From Planctomycetota bacterium (lineage in GTDB: Bacteria > Planctomycetota > Planctomycetia > Pirellulales > Pirellulaceae), in assembly GCA_014381825.1 (NCBI GenBank), contig JACNKX010000101.1:68107-103680 (forward strand): DNA of 35,574 nucleotides, written 5' to 3'. Position 1 is the stretch's first letter, and each line of letters opens with the position of its first letter. This document shows positions 1 through 21,450 of the stretch, in pieces. The notes below the pieces were generated by a model. It saw only the letters and a program-made list of their open reading frames with translations. It did not search any database and was not told the DNA's origin. The translations under genes and the position numbers were made by a program.

Positions 1-45
1 TCCAAGCCCGGTGAATCCAAGCCCGGTGAATCCAAGCCCGGTGAG
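1..45 (+). repeat. 15-bp tandem repeat encoding SKPGE
   Basis: Three head-to-tail copies of TCCAAGCCCGGTGAA are present; the third ends in GAG instead of GAA. The unit is in frame with the truncated coiled-coil gene and encodes Ser-Lys-Pro-Gly-Glu. The array starts exactly at the window edge, so it probably continues to the left. In-frame 15-bp units of this type can change copy number without disrupting the frame. Confidence 0.9.
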
Positions 46-939
46 GATGGACAGAATTCAAATGACCAACCACAACTGAATGAAGACCAGCAAAAGGAAG
101 ATGCCAATCCCGCTCGTGAGCGATTGCAAGCCGCTGAAGAGCGAATGCGAGAGGCGCAAAAACAGCTGGAGAGCGCGAGTCGCGATGATGCGGTTGAGGA
201 ACAGGAGAAGGCTCGCCACGAACTCGAAAAGGCGAAGGCAGAACTAGAGGAGATCTTGCGTCAGCTGCGCGAGGAGGAAGTTGGACGAACGCTCGCGCTG
301 CTTGAAGGTCGGTTTCGCCGAATGCTCGAAAAGCAGCTAGAGGTCTTCGAGTCGACGAAACGCCTTGACAAGGTCGCGCCCGACGAACGAGGTCGTCAAG
401 TGGATATTCAGGCCAGCAAACTCGGTTTCGATGAAACAAAACTAGCGATCGAAGCCGACAAAGCGCTGCTGCTGTTGCACGAGGAAGGATCGTCCGTTGC
501 ATTTCCTGAGACAGTTTCAATGATGCGAGACGACATGCAACAAGTTGCCGACCAACTCTCGTCAACGAAAATCGGCACGCTCACGCAAGGAATCGAAGAA
601 GAGATCATCAGCACCTTGGAAGAGATGATCGCCGCATTGCAGCAGGCTCAACAGGATCTGGAAGAAAAGAAGCAGCAAGAGCAGCAACAGCAAAAACAAA
701 TGCAACGATCGGGCGAGGAGCCGCTGGTTGATCAAATTGCCGAGTTGAAGATGATCCGCGCGCTGCAAATGCGTGTTAACACTCGAACGACACGATTCTC
801 GCGATTGTTGGAAAACAGTGATGATCTTGTCGGCGAGCCAGATGACGAAGAACTTCGTGAGTCGATCGTCAAACTGAGCGAGCGACAAGATCGCATCCAT
901 CAAGTCACGTCGGACATCGTCTTGGGAAAAAACAATTAG
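1..939 (+). CDS. Coiled-coil protein, 5'-truncated by window edge
   Basis: The reading frame is open from base 1 to the TAG at 937-939, so the gene begins outside the window and the visible part is its C-terminal 312 residues. It opens with three copies of the pentapeptide SKPGE, then an acidic, Gln/Asn-rich linker, then about 250 residues rich in Glu, Lys, Arg and Gln with the heptad pattern of long coiled coils (for example the AEERMREAQKQLESA region). A poly-Gln/Lys stretch lies near bases 670-705. No enzyme motif is visible. It is followed 8 bp later by the next gene of a six-gene operon. I do not recognise a named family. By context it is probably a structural or scaffold component of an envelope-associated operon, which is inference. 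Confidence 0.85.
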   Translation, partial: SKPGESKPGESKPGEDGQNSNDQPQLNEDQQKEDANPARERLQAAEERMREAQKQLESASRDDAVEEQEKARHELEKAKAELEEILRQLREEEVGRTLALLEGRFRRMLEKQLEVFESTKRLDKVAPDERGRQVDIQASKLGFDETKLAIEADKALLLLHEEGSSVAFPETVSMMRDDMQQVADQLSSTKIGTLTQGIEEEIISTLEEMIAALQQAQQDLEEKKQQEQQQQKQMQRSGEEPLVDQIAELKMIRALQMRVNTRTTRFSRLLENSDDLVGEPDDEELRESIVKLSERQDRIHQVTSDIVLGKNN

Positions 940-947
940 GATCGAGC

Positions 948-1985
948 ATGAAATGTGAAGCCATCGCGATGCTATTGGTGACTTGCGTTGCAACATCCAA
1001 CGTATACAGCGAGGATGATCTCGCAAAACGCGCAAGTTGGGCACAGCCTTCGGTAGCCGAGGTGAAGGCACAGGTTATTTCATGGCTCGAATCGCAAGAT
1101 GTGGACGAAGCGCTACAAAAGGAGGTTGATACGTTCTGGACTGACGACCGTTTACCACTATCCGGCGTAGAGTTGCTTGAGCACGTGGCCCTCACGATTG
1201 GACGTGTTGATTTAGAGGTTCGACCGCTTGTCGAACTTTGTCGTGGCACCGCACCGCGTCACCTGACACCTCCGGTTGAAGTCCTATTCGACGAGAGCCG
1301 CGAGCCTTTCGAACGAAACAATCTACGCCTCTACTTTGCCCAATGGCTGACGCAGCAGGCGTTCTACGACGAAGCGCTCGAACTGCTCGATGGACTCACC
1401 CACGAGGATGTAGTCGACCCGGCATCATTGTTGTTCTATCAAAGCGTCGTCCACCATCGATTGCTAAATAAGGACGACTGCCTGATTTCATTGAACTTGT
1501 TGCTGGAGGACGAGCGAGGGATTCCACGGCGTTACCGCTCCGTCGCCAAGCTGATGGAATCAGACATTAAACCGCTCGAAGAGGATTCTCTCGACGAAGT
1601 GTCTCGCCTGATGGATGACATCCAAAGGCGATTGAATCTCGGTCGTGCCGGCACGCGTGTCCGCGATGAAGAAGACGATGTCATCGAAAAGCTTGACAAG
1701 ATGATTGAAGATCTCGAAAAGCAGCGACAGCAGGCGCAGCAAGCGAGTGGCAGCGCCAATGGAACACTCCAGCCAAGTAAACCTGCGGATGACTCAAACG
1801 CAATGGGCGGCAAAGGGCCAGGCAACGTCGACCAAAAGCGGCTGAAGAACGAAGTGGACTGGGGTAACCTGCCGCCCAAGGAGAGACAAGAGGCTCTGCA
1901 ACAGATCAGCAAGGATTTGCCCGCGCACTTCCGGGACGTGATCGAAGAGTATTTCCGAAAACTAGCACGCGACGATGGTAACTAA
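948..1985 (+). CDS. Exported TPR-like / coiled-coil hypothetical protein
   Basis: This 345-residue protein begins with a probable signal peptide (hydrophobic residues about 7-20, likely cleavage after the Ser at about 21). An AGGA Shine-Dalgarno sits just before the ATG. Residues about 120-200 have the alternating helical pattern of TPR-like repeats (FYDEALELLDGL, then SLLFYQSVVHHRLL). A charged coiled coil follows at about 225-265, then a Ser/Gly/Asn-rich linker, and the end carries the motif W-G-N-L-P-P-K-E-R-Q-E-A-L-Q. From memory, that ending recurs in coiled-coil proteins of planctomycete BatA/VWA-type gene clusters; I could not check this. It starts 8 bp after the coiled-coil gene and overlaps the next gene by 11 bp, which points to translational coupling. 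The specific function is unknown. Confidence 0.85.
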   Translation: MKCEAIAMLLVTCVATSNVYSEDDLAKRASWAQPSVAEVKAQVISWLESQDVDEALQKEVDTFWTDDRLPLSGVELLEHVALTIGRVDLEVRPLVELCRGTAPRHLTPPVEVLFDESREPFERNNLRLYFAQWLTQQAFYDEALELLDGLTHEDVVDPASLLFYQSVVHHRLLNKDDCLISLNLLLEDERGIPRRYRSVAKLMESDIKPLEEDSLDEVSRLMDDIQRRLNLGRAGTRVRDEEDDVIEKLDKMIEDLEKQRQQAQQASGSANGTLQPSKPADDSNAMGGKGPGNVDQKRLKNEVDWGNLPPKERQEALQQISKDLPAHFRDVIEEYFRKLARDDGN

Positions 1986-3240
1986 CACGATGCTCACTGC
2001 AACCTTGAACTCCCTTGTGCTTGCTGCAACTCTTGGCAACGCACCAATCGACATCAACCAACTCGACGGCCAAACTACGAGCGGAACGCTCGTCTCACTT
2101 TCCCCGGATCAAATGGTCGTCGAAACAGACGACGGGACGCAGACGTTCACGACTCGTGAGATTTTCTCACTGACGTTTGTCGACTCATACGGTGATGAAG
2201 ACTTTATTCCTCTCGAAGACCCGTTAGTCGTTCAATTTGTGGATGGCTCCAGCCTACAAGCAACAGGCTTCCAAGTGGAGGCCGGTCGTGCAACGGTACT
2301 GCGTCCGGAGGACGATCCGATTCGAGCCGCAACTCGCTCAGTGCATTCGGTTCGATTCTTCAAGCCAACGGTCGAGCTATCTAAGCAATGGGATGACATC
2401 GAAACGGCTAGCGACGTTGCTGGTGATGTCCTTGTGATTCGCAAGACGCTAACGGTGGAGGACGAGAACGGCATTGAACAGGAATCAATCGGACTCGATT
2501 CGTTGGAAGGTGTGCTCTACGACATCACGGACGAAAGTGTCGCGTTTGAGTTCGACGGAACTCGCGTCGACGTACCACGTCACAAGGTCGAAGGCGTGAT
2601 CTACTTTCGTCGAACTGGCGCGCGCTTGGCCGAGCCGACGAGTCGAGTGTCGACCGTAGACGGCACGATCTGGAATCTTAAGTCTTGTCAGCTTGACGGC
2701 GACACGCTCAAAGGCGTCAGCGTCGGTGGCGTTCGATTGAGTATGCCACTTGCAAGTTTGACGAAGCTCGATTTTTCTGTTGGAAATCTGGTCTTCCTGA
2801 GCGATCTAGAGCCAAGCACGTTCCACTGGAAAGCCGACTTTCAAACCTCGAAAACTCCCTCGGTCGTACCTACGTGGTACCACCTTCGATTGGACGAAGG
2901 CTTCTACGGAGGTCCCTTGCGGCTCGACTCACGCAGTTATGAAAAGGGGCTATCTCTCCATAGCCAAACGAAGCTGAGCTACCGTCTAACACGTGACTTC
3001 GACCGTTTCGCTGCGATCGCCGGTATCGATGACCGCTTTCAAGCCGACGGTAACGTCACACTCACGATCAGCGGAGATGGCAAGCAACTCCTGTCAGAGG
3101 ACTTGGCCGGCTCGAGGAATATCGAGATTAATCTTGATCTAAGAGGCATCCGTCGCTTGGAGATTCTTGTCGATTATGGTGATGATGAAGTCGGTTACGG
3201 CGACTACCTAAACCTTTGCAACGCAAGGCTAATGAAATGA
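1975..3240 (+). CDS. Exported protein with beta repeats and C-terminal NPCBM domain
   Basis: The protein has 421 residues. The C-terminal part (about 300-420) matches the NPCBM/NEW2 pattern: Y-x-L-R-L-D near the start, then Y-x-K-G-L-S-L-H-S-Q, A-x-A-G-I-D-D and an I-x-G-D-G-K strand. NPCBM is a carbohydrate-binding fold often attached to glycosidases, and it is used more widely in planctomycetes. The N-terminal part holds about four weakly similar units of 40-55 residues (about 29-69, 86-128, 178-212 and 226-268), each running from a D-G or E-G turn to a short [VI]xxxxF strand, which suggests small beta barrels. The N-terminus is a weak signal sequence. The ATG at 1975 overlaps the previous gene by 11 bp, while an ATG at 1990 (residue 6) would give a cleaner signal peptide. 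It overlaps the next gene by 4 bp. It is probably a cell-surface or periplasmic binding component. Confidence 0.85.
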   Translation: MVTNTMLTATLNSLVLAATLGNAPIDINQLDGQTTSGTLVSLSPDQMVVETDDGTQTFTTREIFSLTFVDSYGDEDFIPLEDPLVVQFVDGSSLQATGFQVEAGRATVLRPEDDPIRAATRSVHSVRFFKPTVELSKQWDDIETASDVAGDVLVIRKTLTVEDENGIEQESIGLDSLEGVLYDITDESVAFEFDGTRVDVPRHKVEGVIYFRRTGARLAEPTSRVSTVDGTIWNLKSCQLDGDTLKGVSVGGVRLSMPLASLTKLDFSVGNLVFLSDLEPSTFHWKADFQTSKTPSVVPTWYHLRLDEGFYGGPLRLDSRSYEKGLSLHSQTKLSYRLTRDFDRFAAIAGIDDRFQADGNVTLTISGDGKQLLSEDLAGSRNIEINLDLRGIRRLEILVDYGDDEVGYGDYLNLCNARLMK

Positions 3241-5003
3241 ACAAGGTGGTTCATAAATTCGCGATCATCGCGTTCCTGATACCGACATTCGCGATGGCGA
3301 ATCTCGCGAGCGGGCAAGTCGCTGAAGCGGTTCGCCAAGCCGAGCAACAACGCATTGATGCAGTTGCGAAAGCGGTGAAGTCGGCCGTTGCGATCTTTTC
3401 GGCTGATGGAAACGGTGGCGGATCGGGGGTCGTGATTTCACCCGACGGCTACGCGCTGACAAACTTCCACGTCGTACAACCTGTCGGCGACTACATGCAG
3501 TGTGGTATGGCAGACGGCCGCTTGTACGACGCGGTTCTCGTAAGTATCGATCCGACCGGCGACGTCGCGTTGATCAAACTCGTTGGGCGCGAGGATTTTC
3601 CGGTCGCTGAGATGGCTGACAGCGACGAAGTGCAAGCGGGTGACTGGTGCTTCGCAGTAGGAAACCCGTTCTTGCTTGCATCAAACTTTGAGCCGACCGT
3701 CACTTACGGTATCGTCTCGGGCGTCCACCGATATCAGGAGCCCGCGGGGACCATCCTCGAATACACCGATTGCATTCAGACCGACGCCGCTATCAACCCA
3801 GGGAATTCGGGTGGACCGCTGTTCAACGCGGCAGGACAACTGATCGGAGTTAATGGCCGCGGGTCGTTCGAGAAACGCGGACGAGTTAACGTCGGCTTGG
3901 GGTACGCGATCTCGATAAATCAAATCAAACACTTTCTCGGATATCTTCACAGTGGTCGCATCGTCGATCATGCAACCCTTGGTGCCACCGTGGATGATGA
4001 CGAAGAGGGACGTGTTGTCGTCTCGAACATCCTGGAGTCGTCGGATGCATATCGACGAGGTCTCCGCTACTCGGACGAACTTGTGTCCTTCGGCGGCCGG
4101 ACCATTGATTCACCGAACGCGTTCAAAAATGTGCTTGGGATCTATCCGAAAGGATGGCGCGTTCCATTGAGTTTCTTGAGAGATGGAGTGCGGCACGACG
4201 TTCATGTGCGTTTGGCAGGTGTCCATGCTGTCGAAGAACTGCTGGCGAAGATCCAAGAAGCTCCCGTCGAAGAACAGAAGCCAAAACGGCGCCCCGGGGA
4301 CGGTGAACAACCGAGCGACGACCAGGAGGAGAAGTCACCGGCTAACCCACATGGCGAACCTGCGAAGGTCCCGGAAGAACTACAGCAGTACATCAAGCAT
4401 CGTTCGGGTTTCGCGAACTATTTCTTCAACGAGTTGCATCGTACGCGGGTGTGGAATGAGTTTCATGATGCCACGGGAGATTTTGCCGCATCTCGAGCAG
4501 ATTGGACGCTTGCAAAGGGTGCAGACTTTGCGATCACGCTCGGGGACGAGAAATCGGCGATAAAGACTGCGACGGCGACGATCGCGCTCGATCGCGGAAA
4601 GGATCTGTCCGAGCAACTCGAACCACAAGGCAGCGGCGGAATGCTCGCGACCTTGCACTTGTGGCGTCGTTTGCTCGTCGAGGGGCCTGCCGCGTTCGGC
4701 GATGTCGTCTATCTGGGACAAGCTCCTCTCGTTGGTCACGATGGCCTGCACGACGTCCTTCTTGGAACCTACGACGTTGTCGAAACGCATTTTTATTTCG
4801 ACCTCACTTCGGGTGAATTACGCGCAATTGAGATGACCCCCGAGCCGGGCACTGATCCGTGCGAGATTCATTTGACTGATTATCGAGAAGTTGCTGGAGC
4901 GAAACTGCCTCATCGAATGCTGATTCGCCATGGCGATAGCATTTTCTTAGAGATTGAGATCGATTCCATACAATTGTCCAAGCCTGATAAGCCGGAGGCT
5001 TAG
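3237..5003 (+). CDS. HtrA/DegP-like serine protease (intact triad) with PDZ and LolA-like C-terminal domain
   Basis: I take the ATG at 3237, which forms an ATGA overlap with the previous stop; a TTG seven codons upstream is less likely. The product has 588 residues. A signal peptide occupies about 1-26. The S1C trypsin-like domain shows a complete triad: His78 in LTNFHVV, Asp109 in GDVALIKL, and Ser191 in NPGNSGGPL. One PDZ domain follows (about 248-326), then a charged Pro/Glu linker (about 340-380). The last 200 residues are not typical of DegP. They are beta-rich and contain FDLTSGELRAIEM and TDYREVAGAKLPHR, which resemble the LolA/outer-membrane lipoprotein carrier fold; this match is tentative. 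It probably acts in the periplasm or at the cell surface as a protease or chaperone. It is the only active member of three successive HtrA-type genes. Confidence 0.93.
   Translation: MNKVVHKFAIIAFLIPTFAMANLASGQVAEAVRQAEQQRIDAVAKAVKSAVAIFSADGNGGGSGVVISPDGYALTNFHVVQPVGDYMQCGMADGRLYDAVLVSIDPTGDVALIKLVGREDFPVAEMADSDEVQAGDWCFAVGNPFLLASNFEPTVTYGIVSGVHRYQEPAGTILEYTDCIQTDAAINPGNSGGPLFNAAGQLIGVNGRGSFEKRGRVNVGLGYAISINQIKHFLGYLHSGRIVDHATLGATVDDDEEGRVVVSNILESSDAYRRGLRYSDELVSFGGRTIDSPNAFKNVLGIYPKGWRVPLSFLRDGVRHDVHVRLAGVHAVEELLAKIQEAPVEEQKPKRRPGDGEQPSDDQEEKSPANPHGEPAKVPEELQQYIKHRSGFANYFFNELHRTRVWNEFHDATGDFAASRADWTLAKGADFAITLGDEKSAIKTATATIALDRGKDLSEQLEPQGSGGMLATLHLWRRLLVEGPAAFGDVVYLGQAPLVGHDGLHDVLLGTYDVVETHFYFDLTSGELRAIEMTPEPGTDPCEIHLTDYREVAGAKLPHRMLIRHGDSIFLEIEIDSIQLSKPDKPEA
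4994..4998 (+). promoter_or_regulatory. Strong Shine-Dalgarno before GTG start of first pseudoprotease
   Basis: GGAGG lies inside the end of the active protease gene, 8 nt before a GTG at 5007. It is the clearest ribosome binding site in this operon, and it favours the GTG at 5007 over the ATG at 5094 as the start of the next gene. Confidence 0.6.
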
Positions 5004-5006
5004 TTC

Positions 5007-6110
5007 GTGATCCGCGAGAGAATATACGCGATTCGTTCACGCTCCGTGTGCGATTCCAATTCGGCGGTCGTGGTGAACTGGCAGATCGCCCGGATGCGAA
5101 GCCTATCGCTGATTCTTCTTTGCGCGACCCTGATCGGCTCGCAGTACAACACGCTGCGCGCAGCTCAGTCGTTTGCAACTACGATTAACTCAGTGCAACC
5201 CAAAATGGTAAAGATCTATGGTGCCGGTGGTATTCGCGGACTTGAAGCTTATCAAAGCGGTTTCTTGATCTCACCAGTAGGACACATCCTCACGACTTGG
5301 AGCTATGTGCTCGATACCGATACCGAAACCGTCACGATCGTGCTCGATGATGGACGCCGGTTCGATGCAAAACTCCTCGGTGCCGACCCGCGGATCGAAA
5401 TCGCAGTGCTAAAGATTGATGCGACGGAGTTGCCGTTCTTCGATCTGGATAGCGCGGTTGATCTGAGTGCGGGTTCACGAGTCCTTGCCTTTAGCAACGT
5501 GTTCGCGGTCGCTGCTGGAAATGAACCGGTAAGTGTCTTACACGGCAGCGTCGCCGCCAACACCAACCTTGCGGCGAGGCGCGGAGCTTACGCTACGACG
5601 TATCGTGGTGCAGCCTATATTTTGGATGCCATGACGAACAACCCGGGCGCGGCGGGTGGAGCATTGACCGACCGGCGAGGCCAATTGGCTGGGTTGTTGG
5701 GCAAGGAGTTGAGGAACTCGCTGGACAACACGTGGCTCAACTATGCCCTTCCGATTCCTGAAATCAAAGCGTCTGTCGATGAAATCCTCGCTGGCAACGC
5801 CCGCCCAATCAGTTCCGCGCCAGACCGACGTCGCCCAATCGAATCCATCACGCTCGCGTCTCTCGGAATCGTCTTGGTGCCGGACGTCGTCAGCAAGACT
5901 CCGCCGTACATCGATCGCGTGCGTCCCGGAACGCCGGCGGCTGAAGCGGACCTTCGACCAGACGATTTGATTTTATTCGCCAATGATCGCCTTGTTAACT
6001 CGTCCAAGATACTTCGAGAAGAGCTGATATACATCGATCGAATCGACGAAGTGCGGTTGGTGGTTCAGCGAATGCAGCAATTGATCGAAGTTTCACTTTT
6101 TGCCGAATAA
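5007..6110 (+). CDS. HtrA-like pseudoprotease with one PDZ domain
   Basis: The fold is recognisably S1C plus PDZ, but all three catalytic positions are changed. The histidine position of the usual ILTNNHVV is Ser99 in ILTTWSYV. The aspartate position is Glu131 in RIEIAVLKI. The nucleophile position of NPGNSGG is Ala216 in NPGAAGG. The oxyanion-loop glycines and surrounding strands are kept, so this reads as a functional non-enzyme, not a decaying gene. The PDZ domain is at about 283-365 (GTPAAEADLRPDDLILFAND). From the GTG at 5007 (strong GGAGG, 3 bp after the previous stop) the protein has 367 residues, with 29 residues before a signal-like segment RSLSLILLCATLIG. From the ATG at 5094 the signal peptide would be of normal length (338 residues). 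The gene lies between the active protease and a second inactive homologue. Confidence 0.88.
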   Translation: MIRERIYAIRSRSVCDSNSAVVVNWQIARMRSLSLILLCATLIGSQYNTLRAAQSFATTINSVQPKMVKIYGAGGIRGLEAYQSGFLISPVGHILTTWSYVLDTDTETVTIVLDDGRRFDAKLLGADPRIEIAVLKIDATELPFFDLDSAVDLSAGSRVLAFSNVFAVAAGNEPVSVLHGSVAANTNLAARRGAYATTYRGAAYILDAMTNNPGAAGGALTDRRGQLAGLLGKELRNSLDNTWLNYALPIPEIKASVDEILAGNARPISSAPDRRRPIESITLASLGIVLVPDVVSKTPPYIDRVRPGTPAAEADLRPDDLILFANDRLVNSSKILREELIYIDRIDEVRLVVQRMQQLIEVSLFAE

Positions 6111-6119
6111 TGCAATTCC

Positions 6120-8072
6120 ATGAAGCAAAGTCCCTCATCGTTAAGCATCTTGTGCCTCCTACTCAGTGTGGGGATTGCGTCTTCGGCAATGGCGGAAGAC
6201 GATATCGCCGCGTTGGAAGAGCAAGCCATGAACGCGGCTGTTGCTAAGGTCGCCCCTGCCGTAGTTCGAATTGAAACGGTTGGCGGGTTGAACCGAGTGG
6301 GCGATGTACTTTTAGGTGACGGACCAACGACCGGGCTGGTCGTCGATGCAGATGGCTTTATCATTTCCAGCGCCTTCAATTTTCTGCGCAAGCCAAATTC
6401 TATTTTAGTGACATTGCCGAGCGGCCAGCGAACGCCCGCGGAGATCGTCGCAAGAGATCACAGTCGCATGTTGGTGCTTTTGAAAGTGACGACCGACGAA
6501 GCGTTGCAAGTTCCAGAACAGGTTCCCGTCGAGGAGATGCAAGTCGGTCAATGGGCGATCGCCGTCGGGCGTGCTCTCGATTCGCGGCGCCCAAATCTCT
6601 CTGTCGGAATCGTCAGCGCGAAAGATCGTGTTTGGGGCAAAGCTATTCAATGTGATGCGAAGATCTCGCCGAGTAACTACGGCGGTCCGCTCGTCGATAT
6701 CGAGGGGCGCGTCCTCGGGGTTTTGGTACCCATGTCACCCAACGAGCATAGCGAGGTCGCCGGTGCCGAATGGTACGACTCAGGAATCGGTTTCGCCATT
6801 CCTCTAGCCGACATTCATGGCACGCTGAAATCGATGATGCGAGGCGAAGACGTGTCACCTGGCTTGCTAGGAATCGCTCTCAAGGGCGGCAGCATTTATT
6901 CGCTGCCAGCTCATATCGCTGCTTGCCAGGTCAAATCGCCAGCATTCGAAGCTGGCCTGCGGGCCGGAGATACGATCATTGAAGTCGATGGCCGAGCGAT
7001 TGAACGACAAGCCCACCTCAAACACGCACTTGGGCCACGGTACGCCGGCGACACGGTTCATGTCGTGGTAAAGCGTGGAGAGGAACGTATCGAGGCGGAT
7101 GTTAAACTCGTGGATCGACTGCTTCCCTACGATCACCCTTTCCTTGGTATCCTTCCGATGCGTGACGGTGAAGGAGTGATTGTGCGCCATGTATTTCCTA
7201 GCAGTGGAGCAGCGACCGCGGGCATTCGGGCCGGCGATAAGCTTGTCATGCTTAATGACACCGTAATCGCAGAAGTCGCTTCTTTGCGAGAGGCACTTGC
7301 AGGTTTCGAACCAATGCAGCAGTTGCAAATTACCGTGACTCGCGCAAACGAAGAACAAGTATTTCAGGTGACACTTGGATCGCTACCTACGACGATTCCT
7401 GAGAGCTTGCCGCCGCCCCACTTAGAAGCTCCCGGCGGAGACTCGGTAGCAGCGGCTGGCTTCATTGAAATGAAAGTTCCCGAACAGCCGAACGAGTGCT
7501 TTGCGTTTGTGCCGCCCAGCTATCAGGCAAGTACTCCTCATGGCGTCATCGTCTACCTACGTCCGCCGGGTGAATTCGACAAGGACAAATTGCTTACACG
7601 TTGGCGAGCGCTATGTGAAGAGAACGAATTAATCCTGTTGGCTCCACAGCCTCTCGACAAGGAACGTTGGACACCGGTCGAAGTCGAATTCGTTCAAAAG
7701 ACGCTCGACCAAATTGTCACGAACTACAATGTCGACAAGTCGCGAATCGTTCTTCATGGTCAAGAAGCTGGCGGCGCGCTGGCGTACCTTTTTGCATTCC
7801 GTAATCGCGAGATCGCAAGGGCAGTGATCGCGATCGACGCCGTCATGCCAGCACGTCTTCGATTGCCCGACACCGATCCCGTCTACCCACTGGCGATCCT
7901 CACAACGCAGGCGCCAAAATCGCGCGTTGCCGAGCGAGTTGAGCAGGCCGTCGAGAAACTACGTGACATGAAGTACCCCGTCACTGTATTGCAACTGGAC
8001 ACCGTTCGCTCATTGAACGACCAAGAACTGGAACAGGTCGTTCATTGGATCGACATGCTCGACCGAATTTAG
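6120..8072 (+). CDS. HtrA-like pseudoprotease, two PDZ domains, fused inactive alpha/beta-hydrolase domain
   Basis: The protein has 650 residues with a signal peptide (about 1-25, ending SSAMA). The S1C-like domain (about 35-235) lacks the triad: the His position is Phe86 (IISSAFNF), the Asp position is Met117 (SRMLVLLKV), and the Ser position is Tyr187 (SPSNYGGPL). Two PDZ domains follow, at about 248-330 (SPAFEAGLRAGDTIIEVDG) and 340-420 (AATAGIRAGDKLVMLND). Residues about 447-650 resemble an esterase-type alpha/beta hydrolase, with RIVLHGQEAGGALA at the nucleophile elbow; the usual GxSxG is GQEAG, so Glu549 replaces the serine. No clear catalytic His follows. The gene starts 9 bp after the previous stop, has no obvious Shine-Dalgarno, and is the last gene of the operon. 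It converges with the methyltransferase gene, leaving only 17 bp between them. Confidence 0.88.
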   Translation: MKQSPSSLSILCLLLSVGIASSAMAEDDIAALEEQAMNAAVAKVAPAVVRIETVGGLNRVGDVLLGDGPTTGLVVDADGFIISSAFNFLRKPNSILVTLPSGQRTPAEIVARDHSRMLVLLKVTTDEALQVPEQVPVEEMQVGQWAIAVGRALDSRRPNLSVGIVSAKDRVWGKAIQCDAKISPSNYGGPLVDIEGRVLGVLVPMSPNEHSEVAGAEWYDSGIGFAIPLADIHGTLKSMMRGEDVSPGLLGIALKGGSIYSLPAHIAACQVKSPAFEAGLRAGDTIIEVDGRAIERQAHLKHALGPRYAGDTVHVVVKRGEERIEADVKLVDRLLPYDHPFLGILPMRDGEGVIVRHVFPSSGAATAGIRAGDKLVMLNDTVIAEVASLREALAGFEPMQQLQITVTRANEEQVFQVTLGSLPTTIPESLPPPHLEAPGGDSVAAAGFIEMKVPEQPNECFAFVPPSYQASTPHGVIVYLRPPGEFDKDKLLTRWRALCEENELILLAPQPLDKERWTPVEVEFVQKTLDQIVTNYNVDKSRIVLHGQEAGGALAYLFAFRNREIARAVIAIDAVMPARLRLPDTDPVYPLAILTTQAPKSRVAERVEQAVEKLRDMKYPVTVLQLDTVRSLNDQELEQVVHWIDMLDRI

Positions 8073-10504: not shown

Positions 10505-12529
10505 CTAGCGTGGCGGGGCCAACGTCACGACGACTTCCAGTTTTTTGCCGTCGCGGAGGATGATTACCTTGACTTTGTCGCCAGCTTTAAACTTACGAAG
10601 TGCTCCATCAATGTCTTCGAGACCCGCGATCTTGCTATCGCCAAATTTGACTATCACGTCGCCTGCTTTAATACCGGCGCGATCCGCGGGGCTATCTTTC
10701 GTCGCCCCCATCAGTGCATATCCTTCAACATCGCGGCCAAAATCCGGAATTGATCCGAGATAGGGGCGGTCGCCGCTTACTTCGCGTTTCTTCTGCTTGA
10801 CTTCAATGTATTCAGGGCGTTCTTCCACGCTCGCAAGTTGGTCCACAACATCGTTCACAAAGCCCGCGATCCGCTCCATGCCTTCGACATTGATTTTGTC
10901 GAAGTCGTCGCTGGGGCGATGATAGTCGTTGTGCGTGCCAGTAAAGAAATGAAAGACGGGAACTTTCTTCCCATAGAACGACGCATGATCGCTGGGACCG
11001 AATCCGCCGGGATCTTTCTTGATTTCAAATTCGTGTCGCTTATTAGTCTCGTCGATCAGCGAGTCGAACGACTTTGCAGTACCTGTACCATGGACGATCA
11101 ACTTGTTGTCCTTTAGTCGGCCCACCATATCCATGTTTACCATGGCGACTGTCTTTTCGAGAGAGATCGCAGGGTTCTTTACGTAGTGGGAGCTGCCGAG
11201 CAAGCCGCGTTCCTCGCCCGAGAAAGCTATAAAGACGATTCGGCGACGGGGTTTGTCATCTTGCGAGGACATTCGGCGAGCTACTTCGAGTAAGGTTGAA
11301 GTGCCAGAGGCATTATCGTCGGCACCGTTGTGAATCGCTTTGGTCCACGGAGCAAGCGAGCCAGGCCCGCCGAGTCCCAAGTGATCATAGTGAGCTCCGA
11401 CAACAATCGTTTCGTCGGCGAGTGCGCCGTTGCCATCGAGGACTCCGGCAACGTTTTTGATCGTTGCCTTCTTGTAGACGACGTTCGACTCGCAGTCCGC
11501 CTTCCAGCCCTTCAAGGCTTGGCTGCGAGGAGTCGGACCTTCGTCAATCGCTGATTCGAGTGCGGCGAGGCCCTTTCCGAGCGAAGCTTTTAAAACACGG
11601 TCGATTAATGTGCGACTCGCGAAGAACACAGGCAGCTTGCGATGACTGCTCTCGGTGCCAGCACCTTGTAGCGTCAAAATCTCGTCGTGATCGCCCTGCA
11701 ACTTGCCGTCGAGAGTGTGAATTCGCGAAACTAGCTTCCCGATACTTTCGCGGTGTTCGGCGGTCTCTTCCTCAGTCGGTTCATCCTTCTCCTGGAACGC
11801 ACTTCGTAGCTTGACTAGTTCGTTAAGTGACTCGTTCCATTGATTTCGAGAGGTCTTTTCCGCTTGCGTGATCCCGTATTGATCATTCACCATCACGACA
11901 GCTGCCGCGCCGTGAGAATAGGCGTTTGATACTTTTGTCGAAAAATGAGCGTGACGTGACGATGAGGTTCCGTCGAAGGCGCTGTGCGGGTTGTTCTGTT
12001 GCGGCTCTTTGCGAATCAGCAACACGACCTTTCCCTTGACATCCACGTCGGCATAATCATCATACTCGGCGTCGGGCGCTGTGATGCCATAGCCGACGAA
12101 GACGATTGACGCGTTGACGACCGCAGTCCCGCCCACCGCCAACGTGTTGAAGTCCTCGCCTAAAACAAGTTCGATCCGCTGCGCTACATCGGCGTCCTCG
12201 ACGCCAGATCCGACGAACGTCAGGTGGTTGTTTGCTGCGGGGCCAAGTTCGGCCTTGACCGTGATCTCGAACGACTGAAACGCGTCACCTGCAAACAAAT
12301 CAGTTCGCAATCCAGCGTCCTCGAACCGCTTCGCAATAAAGTCCGCCGCCTGATCCAGCTCCGCGGTCCCGACGCCACGTCCGCCCAATTCGTCGCTGGC
12401 CAAATACTTCACGGTTTCGAACAGCCGGGCCCCGCTCGCCGAGGAATCCTCACCTTGCGCCGGTGCATTCCCATACGCGATGAACAGGGAAATTGAGAAG
12501 GTAAGCGGGTTGAGCAATTGGCGTAGCAT
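10505..12529 (-). CDS. Exported M28-family zinc peptidase with PA and PDZ domains
   Basis: The protein has 674 residues with a signal peptide (about 1-24). A PA (protease-associated) segment lies at about 140-220 (VFVGYGITAPDAEYDDY, then GKVVLLIRKEP). The M28 domain has all expected zinc ligands and the catalytic Glu: His380 in GAHYDHLG, Asp404 in GADDNASG, Glu439/Glu440 in FSGEERGLLGS, Asp467 in VNMDMVG, and His515 in SDHASF. A C-terminal PDZ domain (about 588-670) has SPADRAGIKAGDVIVKFGD. M28 enzymes with this layout are co-catalytic zinc aminopeptidases. This one should act outside the cytoplasm on peptides, with PDZ perhaps binding substrate or partner. A charged insertion (about 225-290, EKDEPTEEETAEHRE) is longer than usual. 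The gene is monocistronic and divergent from the receiver/histidine kinase pair. Confidence 0.93.
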   Translation of the reverse strand: MLRQLLNPLTFSISLFIAYGNAPAQGEDSSASGARLFETVKYLASDELGGRGVGTAELDQAADFIAKRFEDAGLRTDLFAGDAFQSFEITVKAELGPAANNHLTFVGSGVEDADVAQRIELVLGEDFNTLAVGGTAVVNASIVFVGYGITAPDAEYDDYADVDVKGKVVLLIRKEPQQNNPHSAFDGTSSSRHAHFSTKVSNAYSHGAAAVVMVNDQYGITQAEKTSRNQWNESLNELVKLRSAFQEKDEPTEEETAEHRESIGKLVSRIHTLDGKLQGDHDEILTLQGAGTESSHRKLPVFFASRTLIDRVLKASLGKGLAALESAIDEGPTPRSQALKGWKADCESNVVYKKATIKNVAGVLDGNGALADETIVVGAHYDHLGLGGPGSLAPWTKAIHNGADDNASGTSTLLEVARRMSSQDDKPRRRIVFIAFSGEERGLLGSSHYVKNPAISLEKTVAMVNMDMVGRLKDNKLIVHGTGTAKSFDSLIDETNKRHEFEIKKDPGGFGPSDHASFYGKKVPVFHFFTGTHNDYHRPSDDFDKINVEGMERIAGFVNDVVDQLASVEERPEYIEVKQKKREVSGDRPYLGSIPDFGRDVEGYALMGATKDSPADRAGIKAGDVIVKFGDSKIAGLEDIDGALRKFKAGDKVKVIILRDGKKLEVVVTLAPPR

Positions 12530-17179: not shown

Positions 17180-20100
17180 TTAGTCTTCCGTTAGATTCTC
17201 CATTTGCTCGACACGCGGGCGTGCTTCGGCAACTTGCTGTGCCGCGTCCGGCCAACCGAATATCAACCCAGCTTCACCGCGAGCCAACATCGACTTCGCG
17301 TGTTCGCGGCGTGCTCCCTGTGCCTCTGCAAGTTCGATGCTCTCGTCGAAGTACTGTCTGGCTTGTTCTTCGCGCACGGCGAGGACCTCCAATAGACCGC
17401 ACTCGCGAAGCAGATGGGCACGGCAGGTCAAATACTGCTTGGTGATTTTCAGTGCAGATCGAGCTGCCTCTCTGGCTCGTTTGATCGCTTGCCGCCGCGA
17501 CGGTCCTTCGGATTCTCGTTCGGCGGCAATGCGAAGGGCGGTGACTTTCCACGTCGCGCTCGCGAAGACACACACGTTGCGGACGCCTTTGTTCTTGCAA
17601 AGGTCGAGACTCTCCTGGAGTACCTTTGCCGCTCGCAGGGGATCGTCTTCTCGGAAGAGGATCTCTAACCCACGGCCCTGGATCGCGAGCGCGCCAGAAG
17701 TAGCATCGTCACGCGGGCGGTCGACTTCCTCCTGCATCTCGCCCTCAGGCGCACTCTTGGGATCGATTTGCATCCAAAAGCAGAGGGAAATCGCTACCGC
17801 TGAGTAGTCGCGGACTTCTTTACCGATAGCGAGGACGCGTTTCGTCTGGCGATAGGCCGCCTTAAGATCGCCTGCGTGATACAGCGACCATGTGTTCATC
17901 ATGCGGGCCATGTTGGCCTCCCACACGTCGCCAGCCTGCTCCAACAGCTCGACGCCGCGGCCGGACGTTTCGATCGCCTTCTCATGTTGCCCGGTGACGA
18001 AGTAGTTAAACGTGTAGAAGCTCAACGCTTGCCCCTGACTCCACAAGTCGCCGCGATCCTTCGAGATGTCGTGCGATCGCTGTGCATACTTCATCCCGCG
18101 ACGTGCCATCGGTAAGCCCGACATCACAATCGAGTGGAACGAATACACTTTCGCCAATTCGGCCGACGGTTGATACCGCTCGGCGATGTTCATCTCTCGC
18201 AAGTGGCACCAGAGGCAAAGTTCCACGCCACGCGTGTACCAGCAGATCATTGTGAAGGCATCGAGTACCCTAGCGCGAAGTAAGTCCATGCGACCGGCGG
18301 CAGAATCAGCGCTTCGAATTCCAACAAGTGACGGAGAGAACGTGTGCAGAACTTGAACCACCGCCTCCTTGCAGAGTCGAACCACAATCGACGGGAAGTT
18401 GCCGGGGGGGCGCTCGCCCAGCGCGATCAGGGCCCTTTCGAGGTACTCGCCAGCCGTTCTCAGGTCCCCCTGCTTAAAGGCCATCGCGCCAAGTTTGCCT
18501 TCGATCCGTGCCAGCGGGATGGCACTTGGGGCAAGCGACAAGGCGGCCTCCAACTGTGTGTGTGCTTCTTTGTACTGTCCTCTGAGTACTAACACGCTGC
18601 CCAGTCCTTCGAGTACGCGGAAGCGAATCGCGTCGGATTGCTTCGAGGCCCCATTGCGCGCGATGCAGTACTGTTGTTCCGCGACTTCCAACGCGTTCTG
18701 CTTGCGCGCCTGTTCAGCGGCGGCTAGTGCGAAGGGAAACGCGCGCTCGTGTTCGCCCGCAGCATCGAAGAAAGACGCGAGGTCGAAGACTCGTTGCCAT
18801 TCTCGCTTCTCGAGTTGATAAGGCTCGGTCGATTCTTCCCAATCCGCCGTACTGTTGATATGAGCCCGCAAGTCTGCAACTTCGATTCCGCTTACCTGTT
18901 CTATCATCAGGGCAAGTTGCAGATTGTGTTGCCGGAGAGTTCCTTGATCGAGATGATCTACAACCGATTCTCGGACGCGGTCGTGATAGCTCTCGACGAC
19001 CACGTCGGAATCTTCTGATCCGGTCGTACGGACGAAGTTTCCGATGCGCAGTTGCGCGAGGAACGCCTGTCCTCTTTCGACCGCGCCGATGGCCTGATAG
19101 GCCTCCATCACCGGGATCGGTCGGCCACTGACCGCGATGAGTTCGAGAAGTCGTCGTGCTTCCTCCGGCAATCGATTGACTCGTGTCCAAATCACTTCAT
19201 CGAGTTCAAGAGACTGATCGGCGATCTGGGGATCCTGTTGTACGTGCTGGGCCAACTCCCAAACGAAGAACGGCCAGCCGCCCGACTCTTCCGCGATCTT
19301 GTTCGCAAAGGTCCGACTTGCATCGTCCTCGCGCCCCAAGAGCGTCAATGCCAGTTGTGTCGACTCTGTTTGAGTTAGCGACTGGACTGCTAACTCTTCT
19401 CGATGGGGAAGGTATTGTCCCTTGCTGTAAGCCTCCGACAAGGCTTGCAGGCACAGGCTACTTTCGACATCTTCGCTTCGATAGGAGCCCAGCAGCAGCA
19501 GCCGTGGCGCGTCGGGAGGACGTACCAAATCCGCCAACAGCCCGGCGCTGTCGACGTCACCCCATTGCAAATCGTCAATATATAAGATCAACGGTTCACG
19601 GATGGCCAGCCGCTGCAGCAACTCGCGCAACGCGTTCATGGCACGCTGCCGCAATTCCTGCTGATCGACATTGTCAATCGAAGGATACGATGCGTTGGGC
19701 GCTTCTGGTGCGCGATCAAGTACAGGGAAAACCCGCGTCAGCGCTAGGCGGTCCCGCGGCATGACGACTTGAACTTCACCAGCGGGCAACGCCTCCAAAT
19801 ACACGGAGAGCGAGTCAATCAAACTGTCCAGAGCCTTGAACGGGACCGATTCCTGTTCGTAGCAGCGGCCTTCCAGAACTACGGCTGCTCGTTGCTGCTG
19901 AACGCCGTCGAGGAAACTGCGTACCAGGACACTCTTACCCATGCCCGACTTGCCATGAACAAAGAAGCTAAGCGTGTCTCCTTCCGAAACCCGTGTCAGG
20001 GCGTCACGCAGTACGTCGAAGTGTCGTTCGCGCCCGACCAGCTCAACGGAGCGAATATCTGTCGCCGGTTGGTGAGCTTCGAGTTGATCTGCCAAGGCGT

Positions 20101-21298
20101 CGGCACCCACACAGCGCAAGACCTCGGTCGCCGTCGGACGACGTTCGGGATCGCGAGCCAATAATGCTATACACAGGTCGTTTAGGTACTGCAGCGTGGC
20201 CGATGCAAAGTGATCAGGCATCTGCGGAGTCTCCGACCGCTTTCTGCTGAGGATTCGCATCGTACCTCCGCTGAAAGGGAAACGGCCTGTCAGCACCTCG
20301 TACAACATCACCCCGACGGCATACCAATCACTGGCTCGAGAGAGCAGTCCTCCGGCCGCCTGTTCGGGAGACATATAGAGTGGCGTTCCCTGGACGATCC
20401 GCTTCTCGTTGGTAGCATGCTTTCGTATCTGGGCCGCCAATCCGAAGTCCAGCAGCACGAGGCGGCCTTCCTTGGTCATCAGCACGTTGGAAGGTTTGAT
20501 GTCACTATGCAGCACACCCGCGTCGTGCAAAACGTTTAGGCCCATAGCCAACTGACTGAGCGCATTCACGAGACGGGCCTGCCGTTCTGCGGATAATCGC
20601 GCCGTACTCACCGAATCGGTAATGGGTGGGCAGTCAGCTTTAGAATCCGGTCCATCGAATCCAGACCAGACATACTCCAGGAAATCCACGCCCTCCAGGA
20701 TCTCCATCGTGAAGCACCAGGTCTGGCCATCGGAGAGAAGTTCGTACAGTGACGCGAGATTGGGGTGAGCAATGTCGGCCAGCGTCCGGAATTCCTGCTT
20801 GAAGCGGTGCAGTCCGTCCGGACTCATCCGTTGCAACGTCTTCAATGCGACTTCACGGCCCATCGCTTCGTTGCGAGCACGATATACGACTCCCATTCCG
20901 CCACGGCCAAGCTCGTCAAGGACCTGATAACCGGCCAGAGTCGGTGGCTCAAACATCTCACGCGAATCATGCTCAGAGGAACTCTGATTGGCCGAGTCAG
21001 AGCTGTGATCCAGCGTCAGAAAGCGCGCCGCTTTCGAGTCCGCTTCCGCCGCCTCGTAATTGGACTGTCGTACCCCACCCGAATTCTCGGCGGAATCAAT
21101 GGTAGCGTCCACGGACCCGGATTGCTTTGTCTCGTGTGCCGGTCTCACTTTGGTGATCGAACCGCACCGCGGACAGGTGACACGACCCGTGGATTCTGGC
21201 AGTTCCAAGATATCCAGTTCGTGACCGTGATGGCAGGACAGACGCGAGGTCATCGGGGTCTCTCGTCGCAATACATTATCGTTGACCGGTGTCGGCAT
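17180..21298 (-). CDS. Giant Ser/Thr protein kinase - STAND ATPase - TPR protein, paralogue A
   Basis: I use the ATG at 21298, equivalent to the start of the tandem copy (1372 residues); an ATG 15 codons later is also possible. Order of domains: a zinc ribbon (about 20-52: CHHGHE then CPRCG), a Ser/Asp-rich linker, a protein kinase (about 120-400), an AAA/STAND ATPase (about 418-780), and TPR-type helical repeats to the end. Kinase motifs are GRGGMGVVY, VALKTL (Lys), VLHSDIKPSN, LLDFGLA and YMSPEQ. The catalytic loop reads HSD, not HRD, so this is a non-RD kinase. Walker A is GKSGMGKS and Walker B is LILYIDDLQW. No membrane segment is seen. It is probably a cytosolic signalling kinase whose TPR region receives the input. 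It lies 208 bp downstream of its near-identical paralogue. Confidence 0.93.
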   Translation of the reverse strand: MPTPVNDNVLRRETPMTSRLSCHHGHELDILELPESTGRVTCPRCGSITKVRPAHETKQSGSVDATIDSAENSGGVRQSNYEAAEADSKAARFLTLDHSSDSANQSSSEHDSREMFEPPTLAGYQVLDELGRGGMGVVYRARNEAMGREVALKTLQRMSPDGLHRFKQEFRTLADIAHPNLASLYELLSDGQTWCFTMEILEGVDFLEYVWSGFDGPDSKADCPPITDSVSTARLSAERQARLVNALSQLAMGLNVLHDAGVLHSDIKPSNVLMTKEGRLVLLDFGLAAQIRKHATNEKRIVQGTPLYMSPEQAAGGLLSRASDWYAVGVMLYEVLTGRFPFSGGTMRILSRKRSETPQMPDHFASATLQYLNDLCIALLARDPERRPTATEVLRCVGADALADQLEAHQPATDIRSVELVGRERHFDVLRDALTRVSEGDTLSFFVHGKSGMGKSVLVRSFLDGVQQQRAAVVLEGRCYEQESVPFKALDSLIDSLSVYLEALPAGEVQVVMPRDRLALTRVFPVLDRAPEAPNASYPSIDNVDQQELRQRAMNALRELLQRLAIREPLILYIDDLQWGDVDSAGLLADLVRPPDAPRLLLLGSYRSEDVESSLCLQALSEAYSKGQYLPHREELAVQSLTQTESTQLALTLLGREDDASRTFANKIAEESGGWPFFVWELAQHVQQDPQIADQSLELDEVIWTRVNRLPEEARRLLELIAVSGRPIPVMEAYQAIGAVERGQAFLAQLRIGNFVRTTGSEDSDVVVESYHDRVRESVVDHLDQGTLRQHNLQLALMIEQVSGIEVADLRAHINSTADWEESTEPYQLEKREWQRVFDLASFFDAAGEHERAFPFALAAAEQARKQNALEVAEQQYCIARNGASKQSDAIRFRVLEGLGSVLVLRGQYKEAHTQLEAALSLAPSAIPLARIEGKLGAMAFKQGDLRTAGEYLERALIALGERPPGNFPSIVVRLCKEAVVQVLHTFSPSLVGIRSADSAAGRMDLLRARVLDAFTMICWYTRGVELCLWCHLREMNIAERYQPSAELAKVYSFHSIVMSGLPMARRGMKYAQRSHDISKDRGDLWSQGQALSFYTFNYFVTGQHEKAIETSGRGVELLEQAGDVWEANMARMMNTWSLYHAGDLKAAYRQTKRVLAIGKEVRDYSAVAISLCFWMQIDPKSAPEGEMQEEVDRPRDDATSGALAIQGRGLEILFREDDPLRAAKVLQESLDLCKNKGVRNVCVFASATWKVTALRIAAERESEGPSRRQAIKRAREAARSALKITKQYLTCRAHLLRECGLLEVLAVREEQARQYFDESIELAEAQGARREHAKSMLARGEAGLIFGWPDAAQQVAEARPRVEQMENLTED

Positions 21299-21430
21299 CG
21301 GTCGTCGGCGTAGCGTCGAACCGTTGCCGCGCCGGGGCCATTGAGCCGCGTCGCCATTACAACTGAATGCTCTTGAGCGCGCCCATTGTAGCATGTGCTT
21401 CGCCAAGCTGCTTTGTGGCCTTCGGCCCGC
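19050..21430 (-). repeat. Tandem duplication, copy A (5' part of kinase gene plus upstream segment)
   Basis: This segment is highly similar to 23300-25760. It covers the zinc-ribbon, kinase and ATPase coding regions and the non-coding upstream segment including the TACAAT hexamer. Similarity falls sharply toward the 3' part of the gene. Boundaries are by eye and approximate. Confidence 0.75.
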
Positions 21431-21450
21431 CAAACTTGACGCCAGCTTCG
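21357..21450 (-). pseudogene. Possible C-terminal relic of another kinase paralogue, upstream of copy A
   Basis: Read on the minus strand, this segment gives RPEAGVKFGGPKATKQLGEA, then HATMGALKSIQL and a stop (TAA at 21357-21359). It resembles the kinase C-termini: paralogue A ends with RGEAGLIFGWPDAAQQVAEA and paralogue B has RGETGLRFGWPNAEEQVA, followed in each case by a short tail. It therefore looks like the 3' end of a lost array member. The match is short (about 10 identities in 24), so chance or a functional upstream element remains possible. Confidence 0.4.
21385..21390 (-). promoter_or_regulatory. Conserved -10-like TACAAT upstream of kinase A
   Basis: On the minus strand the sequence reads GCTACAATGG, a 5-of-6 match to TATAAT, 86 bp before the ATG at 21298. 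The same hexamer at nearly the same distance precedes paralogue B (25719-25724). No good -35 is found at 17 bp. Confidence 0.4.

Follow-up and report, generated by a model that had tools for sequence, protein, structure and literature searches.

The stretch of DNA considered here, hereafter the window (35,574 nucleotides; positions 68,107 to 103,680 of contig JACNKX010000101.1, assembly GCA_014381825.1), belongs to a planctomycete of the family Pirellulaceae, whose genome assembly comprises 9.69 Mb on 238 contigs, and carries on its + strand three consecutive open reading frames (ORFs), p1, p2 and p3, that encode HtrA-type proteins with PDZ domains (Table 1). The stop codon of the preceding gene overlaps the ATG of p1 (ATGA, 3237-3240), the frame of which is open from 3216; for p2, the ATG at 5094 is a likelier start than the GTG at 5007, and a signal-peptide-like stretch comes after 5094, but residues of p2 are numbered here from the GTG. 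Stretches of this kind, judged by eye, stand at the N-terminus of all three proteins, which would therefore be candidates for export. All three pass the Pfam cut-offs for Trypsin_2 (113, 68 and 74 bits for p1, p2 and p3, against 27.6) and PDZ_2 (28, 32 and 93 bits, against 27), and their best sequence matches in the PDB are DegP, DegQ and DegS. The AlphaFold models of p2 (mean predicted local distance difference test, pLDDT, 83.3; predicted template modelling score, pTM, 0.70) and p3 (92.5 and 0.87) both have DegP/DegQ as their best Foldseek match, the whole-chain TM-score of p2 being just 0.47, with a root-mean-square deviation of 13.9, when protease and PDZ domain are aligned together. Although the trio thus shares the protease and PDZ fold of DegP, DegQ and DegS, it differs from them in that p2 and p3 lack the catalytic triad, in that all three proteins score below the curated cut-off of 416 bits of the Do-family endopeptidase model TIGR02037 (223, 91 and 176 bits), and in the extra C-terminal domains of p1 and p3. 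A family for the C-terminal domain of p1 was sought in Pfam and the PDB, and none was found. The named relatives of p3 are in Pirellulaceae, Thermoguttaceae, Blastopirellula marina and other planctomycetes, which would make Pirellulales the most likely order of the host.

Table 1. Trio genes, active-site positions, additional domains and upstream neighbours in the window (counts are of aligned orthologues, window included)
Feature	Position	Strand	Description
p1	3237..5003	+	HtrA, triad intact; Trypsin_2, PDZ and a C-terminal domain of its own
p1 His78 (catalytic)	3468..3470	+	H in 94/94 readable of 96 rows
p1 Asp109 (catalytic)	3561..3563	+	D in 94/94 readable of 96 rows
p1 Ser191 (catalytic)	3807..3809	+	S in 95/95 readable of 96 rows
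p1-specific C-terminal domain	4374..5003	+	no Pfam match, no convincing PDB match
p2	5007..6110	+	pseudoprotease; Trypsin_2 and PDZ; likelier start ATG 5094
p2 Ser99 (His position)	5301..5303	+	S86 N8 T3 G1 of 98
p2 Glu131 (Asp position)	5397..5399	+	E58 D34 G4 A2 of 98
p2 Ala216 (Ser position)	5652..5654	+	A76 G10 P4 T3 H2 V1 Q1 N1 of 98
p3	6120..8072	+	pseudoprotease; Trypsin_2, two PDZ and an esterase-like C-terminal domain
p3 Phe86 (His position)	6375..6377	+	F71 Y10 I6 A3 W2 L2 T1 H1 E1 of 97
p3 Met117 (Asp position)	6468..6470	+	M49, rest variable including one D, of 97
p3 Tyr187 (Ser position)	6678..6680	+	Y96 V1 of 97; Y in 15/15 outside the class
p3 alpha/beta-hydrolase (esterase)-like domain	7464..8069	+	residue 549 (Glu) at the expected nucleophile Ser
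g1, 3' part	1..939	+	coiled-coil/low-complexity protein; starts upstream of the window (L141:17273 onward; short N run in repeat)
g2	948..1985	+	no Pfam family above cut-off
g3	1975..3240	+	NPCBM domain; stop overlaps the p1 start

Triad positions were placed by sequence alignment and not from model coordinates, in two samples of related regions: an order sample of 60 regions, one per genome, out of 296 genomes searched at order level, and a second sample that adds 40 regions of 37 other genomes, of which four belong to the same order. With the window included, the alignments hold 96 rows for p1, 98 for p2 and 97 for p3, unreadable p1 rows being gapped. The triad is kept in every readable p1, and the catalytic His and Ser occur in none of the 98 p2 orthologues, nor in any of 15 from outside the class. 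Thirty-four of the 98 p2 sequences retain Asp at its triad position, so that complete loss of the triad is not general for p2. At the Ser position, p2 takes many residues but never Ser, whereas p3 has nearly always Tyr, which indicates that different constraints act on the two dead sites. A separate p3 set, in which 81 of 81 sequences carry the Tyr, is biased because the search pattern included that residue, and we rely instead on the counts in Table 1. The possibility that misalignment conceals a triad was rejected: the per-family alignments place Ser (p2) and Phe (p3) in the His column, a joint alignment of p1, p2 and p3 with the other trypsin-like proteins of the genome moves this column by one residue, and neither reading yields His.

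The earlier note, which had been made from the letters of the window alone, described an active HtrA followed by two paralogues with Ser/Glu/Ala and Phe/Met/Tyr in place of its His78, Asp109 and Ser191, with fold, PDZ domains and frames intact, and this description is borne out in each part by the ORFs, Pfam scores, models and per-family alignments. Its further claim, that all three residues had been lost twice, stands for p3 generally and for the p2 of the window, but not for p2 at large; the retained Asp of p2 and the additional esterase-like domain of p3 are absent from it.

Elsewhere in the same genome, 11 of the 15 assessable trypsin-like places keep His, Asp and Ser, the four without the full triad being L013, L015, L016 and L018; excluded from this comparison were L019 (a neighbour's frame), L020 (the frame of L010) and L014 (p2, landed on p3). 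Since the substitutions in p2 and p3 recur in about 100 orthologues while most other places of the genome keep the triad, they reflect more than chance. As a separate observation, L015 (G000:C58:49921-50379) and L016 (G000:C15:15851-16240) are trypsin-like sequences whose triad looks degenerate in a loose alignment.

The trio also extends beyond the class. A phylum-level search with a single-sequence query, which may miss other p2-like proteins, found such proteins at E <= 1e-20 in 34 of the 199 genomes covered, of which 23 lie outside the class. Sixteen of these 23 regions were fetched, of which 15 hold the trio; in all 15, p1 is intact, p2 lacks His and Ser and p3 has the Tyr (the p1 row of the sixteenth region, L291, which has no trio, was left out of the count). 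When 96 protease-PDZ sequences, among them nine from the window's genome that lie outside the trio, were placed in one tree, p1, p2 and p3 each formed one clade with a support of 100 (Shimodaira-Hasegawa-like approximate likelihood ratio test, SH-aLRT), and several groupings repeat within all three clades; the tree was built by a quick method and has long branches among the proteins outside the trio. Together with the triad loss outside the class, the clades suggest that the loss of catalysis in p2 and p3 seems to predate the parting of the sampled planctomycete classes.

When the window was compared with L142 and L143, the relatives closest to it, the ratios of nonsynonymous to synonymous substitution rates (dN/dS, NG86 method) were 0.05-0.06 for p1, 0.07-0.08 for p2 and 0.05-0.09 for p3, and between L142 and L143 they were 0.09, 0.07 and 0.11; the estimable pairs with L144 gave 0.14-0.19 across the three genes, its pairs with the window and one with L143 being saturated. 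These values are rough because every estimable dS exceeds 1 (1.16-2.89), yet they are nowhere near 1. Ordinary decay, with p2 and p3 as dying copies of p1, could appeal to the triad loss by itself, and it has against it that each forms a single clade, present in several classes, with restricted replacements, open frames and dN/dS far below 1; we give it practically no credence, and recent decay in particular is rejected by the conserved substitutions, the low dN/dS, the out-of-class orthologues and the clades. With the fold kept, the catalytic residues lost across orthologues and purifying selection acting, p2 and p3 are pseudoproteases by sequence, presumably devoid of proteolytic activity, retained and not randomly decaying, as the earlier note had proposed. 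That note had named intact triads in the second and third genes of relatives, or dN/dS near 1, as signs of recent decay; the relatives have no such triads, and the nearest pairs lie at 0.05-0.11.

The three genes are nearly always kept or lost together. In a class sample of 148 genomes, p2 is present in 108 and p3 in 107, and p2 adjoins p3 in 96 of the 107 genomes having both (a hand count from full match lists). The C-terminal domain of p1 (query 4350-5000) is found in 103 genomes, every one of them with p2 and p3, and no match to it occurs in any class-sample genome without p2 and p3. Among the 20 listed of the 40 genomes without p2, 18 belong to one family (f21). When 12 genomes lacking p2 and p3 were searched with full-length p1, every match ended by residue 377, as expected for other HtrAs. 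In G310, G313 and G400 the trio is scattered yet complete, with p1 intact in all three genomes; in G313 and G400, which are single-contig genomes, the genes lie far apart and p2 and p3 lack the triad. Retention of the trio after the cluster has broken up points to a functional bond beyond shared regulation. Furthermore, L280:4754-7888 (+) is a natural fusion of p1 and p2 in a single frame of 1045 residues, with p3 separate. In L285, L287 and L290, apparent fusions joining p2 to further domains were rejected, as the long frames overlap the p1 gene in a different frame. A second p2-p3 pair was also seen at G008:C12:20406-22415, in a genome that already has one.

Two further features bear on what the dead proteins may do. 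In both, conservation of the former serine loop exceeds the average of the domain (0.84 against 0.60 in p2, 0.82 against 0.62 in p3). At one alignment position, which we take to be a contact of the HtrA trimer, an aromatic residue is found in p1 (F in 107 of 109), in p2 (F or Y in 112 of 112) and in part of p3 (F, Y or W in 77 of 110 listed). The simplest reading of this position, of the fusion and of the tendency to be kept or lost together casts p2, and probably also p3, as non-catalytic partners of p1. We favour, with a probability of roughly 0.55, the view that p1, p2 and p3 constitute one old functional unit of the planctomycete cell envelope, in which p2 and p3 are the non-cutting partners. 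In such a unit, p1 would be a working periplasmic HtrA protease that cuts, and p2 and p3 would be exported pseudoproteases that do not, each apparently fixed in its non-catalytic state before the sampled classes parted. With their PDZ domains and the surface around the dead serine loop they may capture substrates or partner proteins, and may deliver the bound proteins to p1 or set its activity, touching it physically either within a mixed HtrA oligomer or by docking onto it. The unit would be part of an envelope gene cluster that is often headed by genes for MoxR, DUF58 and BatA/VWA proteins.

Several observations weigh against this view. Shared presence and gene order would also be expected if the three proteins served one process without touching, and the association itself is incomplete: p2 and p3 are apart in 11 of the 107 genomes (G002, G310, G313, G352, G361, G370, G385, G386, G388, G394 and G400), in eight of them on different contigs of draft assemblies; four genomes (G024, G304, G368 and G394) have p2 and p3 with no match to the p1 C-terminal domain, p1 nevertheless adjoining p2 in G024 and G304; and in G308 a weak match to p2 stands by itself. 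The fusion was seen just once, in a draft genome. Conservation of the serine loop need not mean binding, because the loop holds fold-keeping glycines, and the other two triad loops are not specially conserved (0.69 and 0.64 in p2, against 0.60; 0.55 and 0.68 in p3, against 0.62), the His loop of p3 falling below its domain average. Finally, the presumed contact position is often non-aromatic in p3 (L24, G7 and I2 of 110), and in the window's p3 it is Leu.

The same conserved dead loops, and the grouping of dead paralogues with an active enzyme in one cluster, would likewise suit inhibitors or decoys that enter the p1 oligomer or hold substrates uncut and so restrain p1. Two different inhibitors, both long kept for one target, are not the simplest arrangement, however, and we regard this role as improbable.

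The C-terminal part of p3 (residues ~449-650) gave profile matches to the esterase LC-Est1C (E 2.5e-10) and to a polyhydroxybutyrate (PHB)-depolymerase-family esterase (8e-7), and the model shows a strand-turn-helix at the nucleophile elbow, where the p3 of the window lacks the Ser of an active esterase. Among 75 rows from named contigs the nucleophile column reads Q32 E15 G10 R6 D4 K4 A2 H1 T1, with no Ser, and in the 97-row set Ser is present in four (L127, L128, L132 and L229, of which L132 reads GISAG); GxSxG anywhere in the tail was found in 4 of the 97 proteins. Judged from these residues, the tail would be a second dead enzyme domain in most members of p3, though not all. Of the p3 proteins in the order sample, 59 of 60 carry it, the exception being L137, whose region stops where the contig does; it is found in 33 of 37 proteins from the second sample and in 1 of 15 from the phylum sample, which marks it as an addition to p3 and not as part of its core.

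Upstream of p1 lie g3, g2 and g1 (Table 1), and above g1 a large protein, g0, in which segments of transmembrane type were seen by eye. BLAST with the proteins of the window placed p1, p2 and p3 together in 59 of the 60 order-level regions and all of g1, g2, g3 (NPCBM), p1, p2 and p3 in 44, some regions being cut by contig ends; as the regions were fetched from p2 or p3 matches, adjacency in these region samples is partly by choice. In 14 regions extended upstream we found g0 in 12, a MoxR-type AAA+ protein in 9, DUF58 in 8, BatA/VWA in 10 and an additional VWA-like protein also in 10, so that the trio ends a gene cluster with MoxR, DUF58 and BatA/VWA at its head in 8-10 of the 14; in two of them, L271 and L272, none of these five was found. 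The names MoxR, DUF58 and BatA rest on Pfam for one region (L267) and on BLAST clustering elsewhere. In L267 the MoxR protein also passes the bpMoxR cut-off, and the DUF58 and BatA/VWA neighbours have no trypsin domain by Pfam in this one region. In the window's own genome different genes precede g0, and the nearest BatA/VWA relative is on another contig (G000:C45). These observations on the head of the cluster refer to L141:14867-17257 (+) and to the upstream parts of L262-L275.

This setting bears on another explanation, namely that p2 and p3 serve the same envelope process as p1 but not p1 itself, as stand-alone periplasmic scaffolds, chaperones or receptors of a MoxR/Bat-type complex, taking peptides through their PDZ domains and perhaps other ligands through the esterase-like domain of p3. 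The company of NPCBM and coiled-coil genes and, in 8-10 of 14 regions, of MoxR, DUF58 and BatA/VWA genes would fit it, as would the two PDZ domains of p3 with (in this class) an extra domain mostly devoid of its nucleophile, and the partial retention of the presumed trimer contact in p3. The fusion of p1 with p2 and the retention of the trio despite a broken cluster, on the other hand, indicate a tie to p1 itself, and on balance we consider a stand-alone role possible but doubtful. Returning to p2 and p3 as partners of p1, a bolder version, which we offer tentatively, is a phylum-deep heteromeric HtrA machine, in which one catalytic and two obligatory dead subunits would form a mixed periplasmic oligomer, the dead sites would read substrates for the live one, and in many species the whole would be coupled to a MoxR/BatA-type AAA+ system across the membrane.

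Among known systems, the nearest precedent is MamE/MamO, active and inactive HtrA homologues within one magnetotactic gene island, whose pairing has been judged a selected one (PMC4794232); like it, the trio pairs active with dead HtrAs. In plant Deg7, active and degenerate HtrA domains lie in one chain and the degenerate one is involved in trimerisation (PMC3473262), an arrangement comparable to the natural p1-p2 fusion, although Deg7 is a single plant chain and the trio is normally three separate bacterial genes. The statement of the earlier note that known HtrA systems are homotrimers, and that an active/inactive set in one operon would be new, therefore fails: the trio is real and conserved, but the pairing of active and dead HtrAs as such has precedent. 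Dead protease copies as such were already known as well, given that a survey published in 2008, which covered 966 serine proteases from 91 prokaryotic genomes, listed 42 of them as putative inactive homologues (PMC2605481), and planctomycetes are described as rich in PDZ proteins (PMC6411480).

The differences are nevertheless clear. The magnetotactic cases are pairs (or recent duplicates, MamE-derived pseudoproteases) tied to magnetite, whereas the trio comprises two dead lineages without His and Ser, in another gene setting and in several classes of Planctomycetota. In MamO, moreover, Thr replaces the Ser and a di-histidine site binds metal (PMC4794232), and as MamO is a studied bacterial HtrA-type pseudoprotease, p2 or p3 might by analogy be a protease repurposed for metal binding. 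Neither of them has a His conserved at 85% or more (His being the ligand considered), and each scores 33 bits with the NCBI MamO model against a cut-off of 800; a MamO-like site was thus rejected, and metal binding appears very unlikely. The MoxR-vWA (VMAP) conflict systems likewise bring MoxR, VWA and inactive trypsin domains into one setting (PMC7159879), but in those systems the inactive trypsins serve as effector domains in fusions with vWA proteins, and the inactive members of the trio are constant HtrA-PDZ proteins with DUF58/BatA-type genes as neighbours. The head of the cluster resembles the Bat (Bacteroides aerotolerance) clusters in having MoxR next to BatA/VWA, and DUF58 is presumably also part of them; what the planctomycete cluster adds is the HtrA trio together with the NPCBM and coiled-coil genes. 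The function of Bat is itself unsettled (PMC3557215).

In the literature searched, mostly open-licence papers and no preprints, we found no description of the trio as a phylum-deep set with two dead HtrA lineages. The main text of a study of essential genes in Planctopirus limnophila has the word protease once, in the methods, and MoxR, DUF58 and trypsin are absent from it (PMC10632474). Pseudoenzymes retained beside a live paralogue raise the question of what purpose a dead active site serves, and here several classes of Planctomycetota keep two distinct dead HtrAs beside a live one, with a near-invariant Tyr in place of Ser in one of the two dead proteins. Three small genes, with a natural fusion that predicts contacts, make this question testable, and the trio offers a handle on a widespread envelope gene cluster.

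Two other places in the window deserve mention. Downstream of the trio, two genes away and on the opposite strand, lies an M28 peptidase with PA and PDZ domains (10505-12529, -). Farther on, two adjacent proteins of about 1400 residues (17180-21433 and 21507-25631, -) share the same plan of protein kinase, AAA_16 and TPR, and perhaps arose by tandem duplication.

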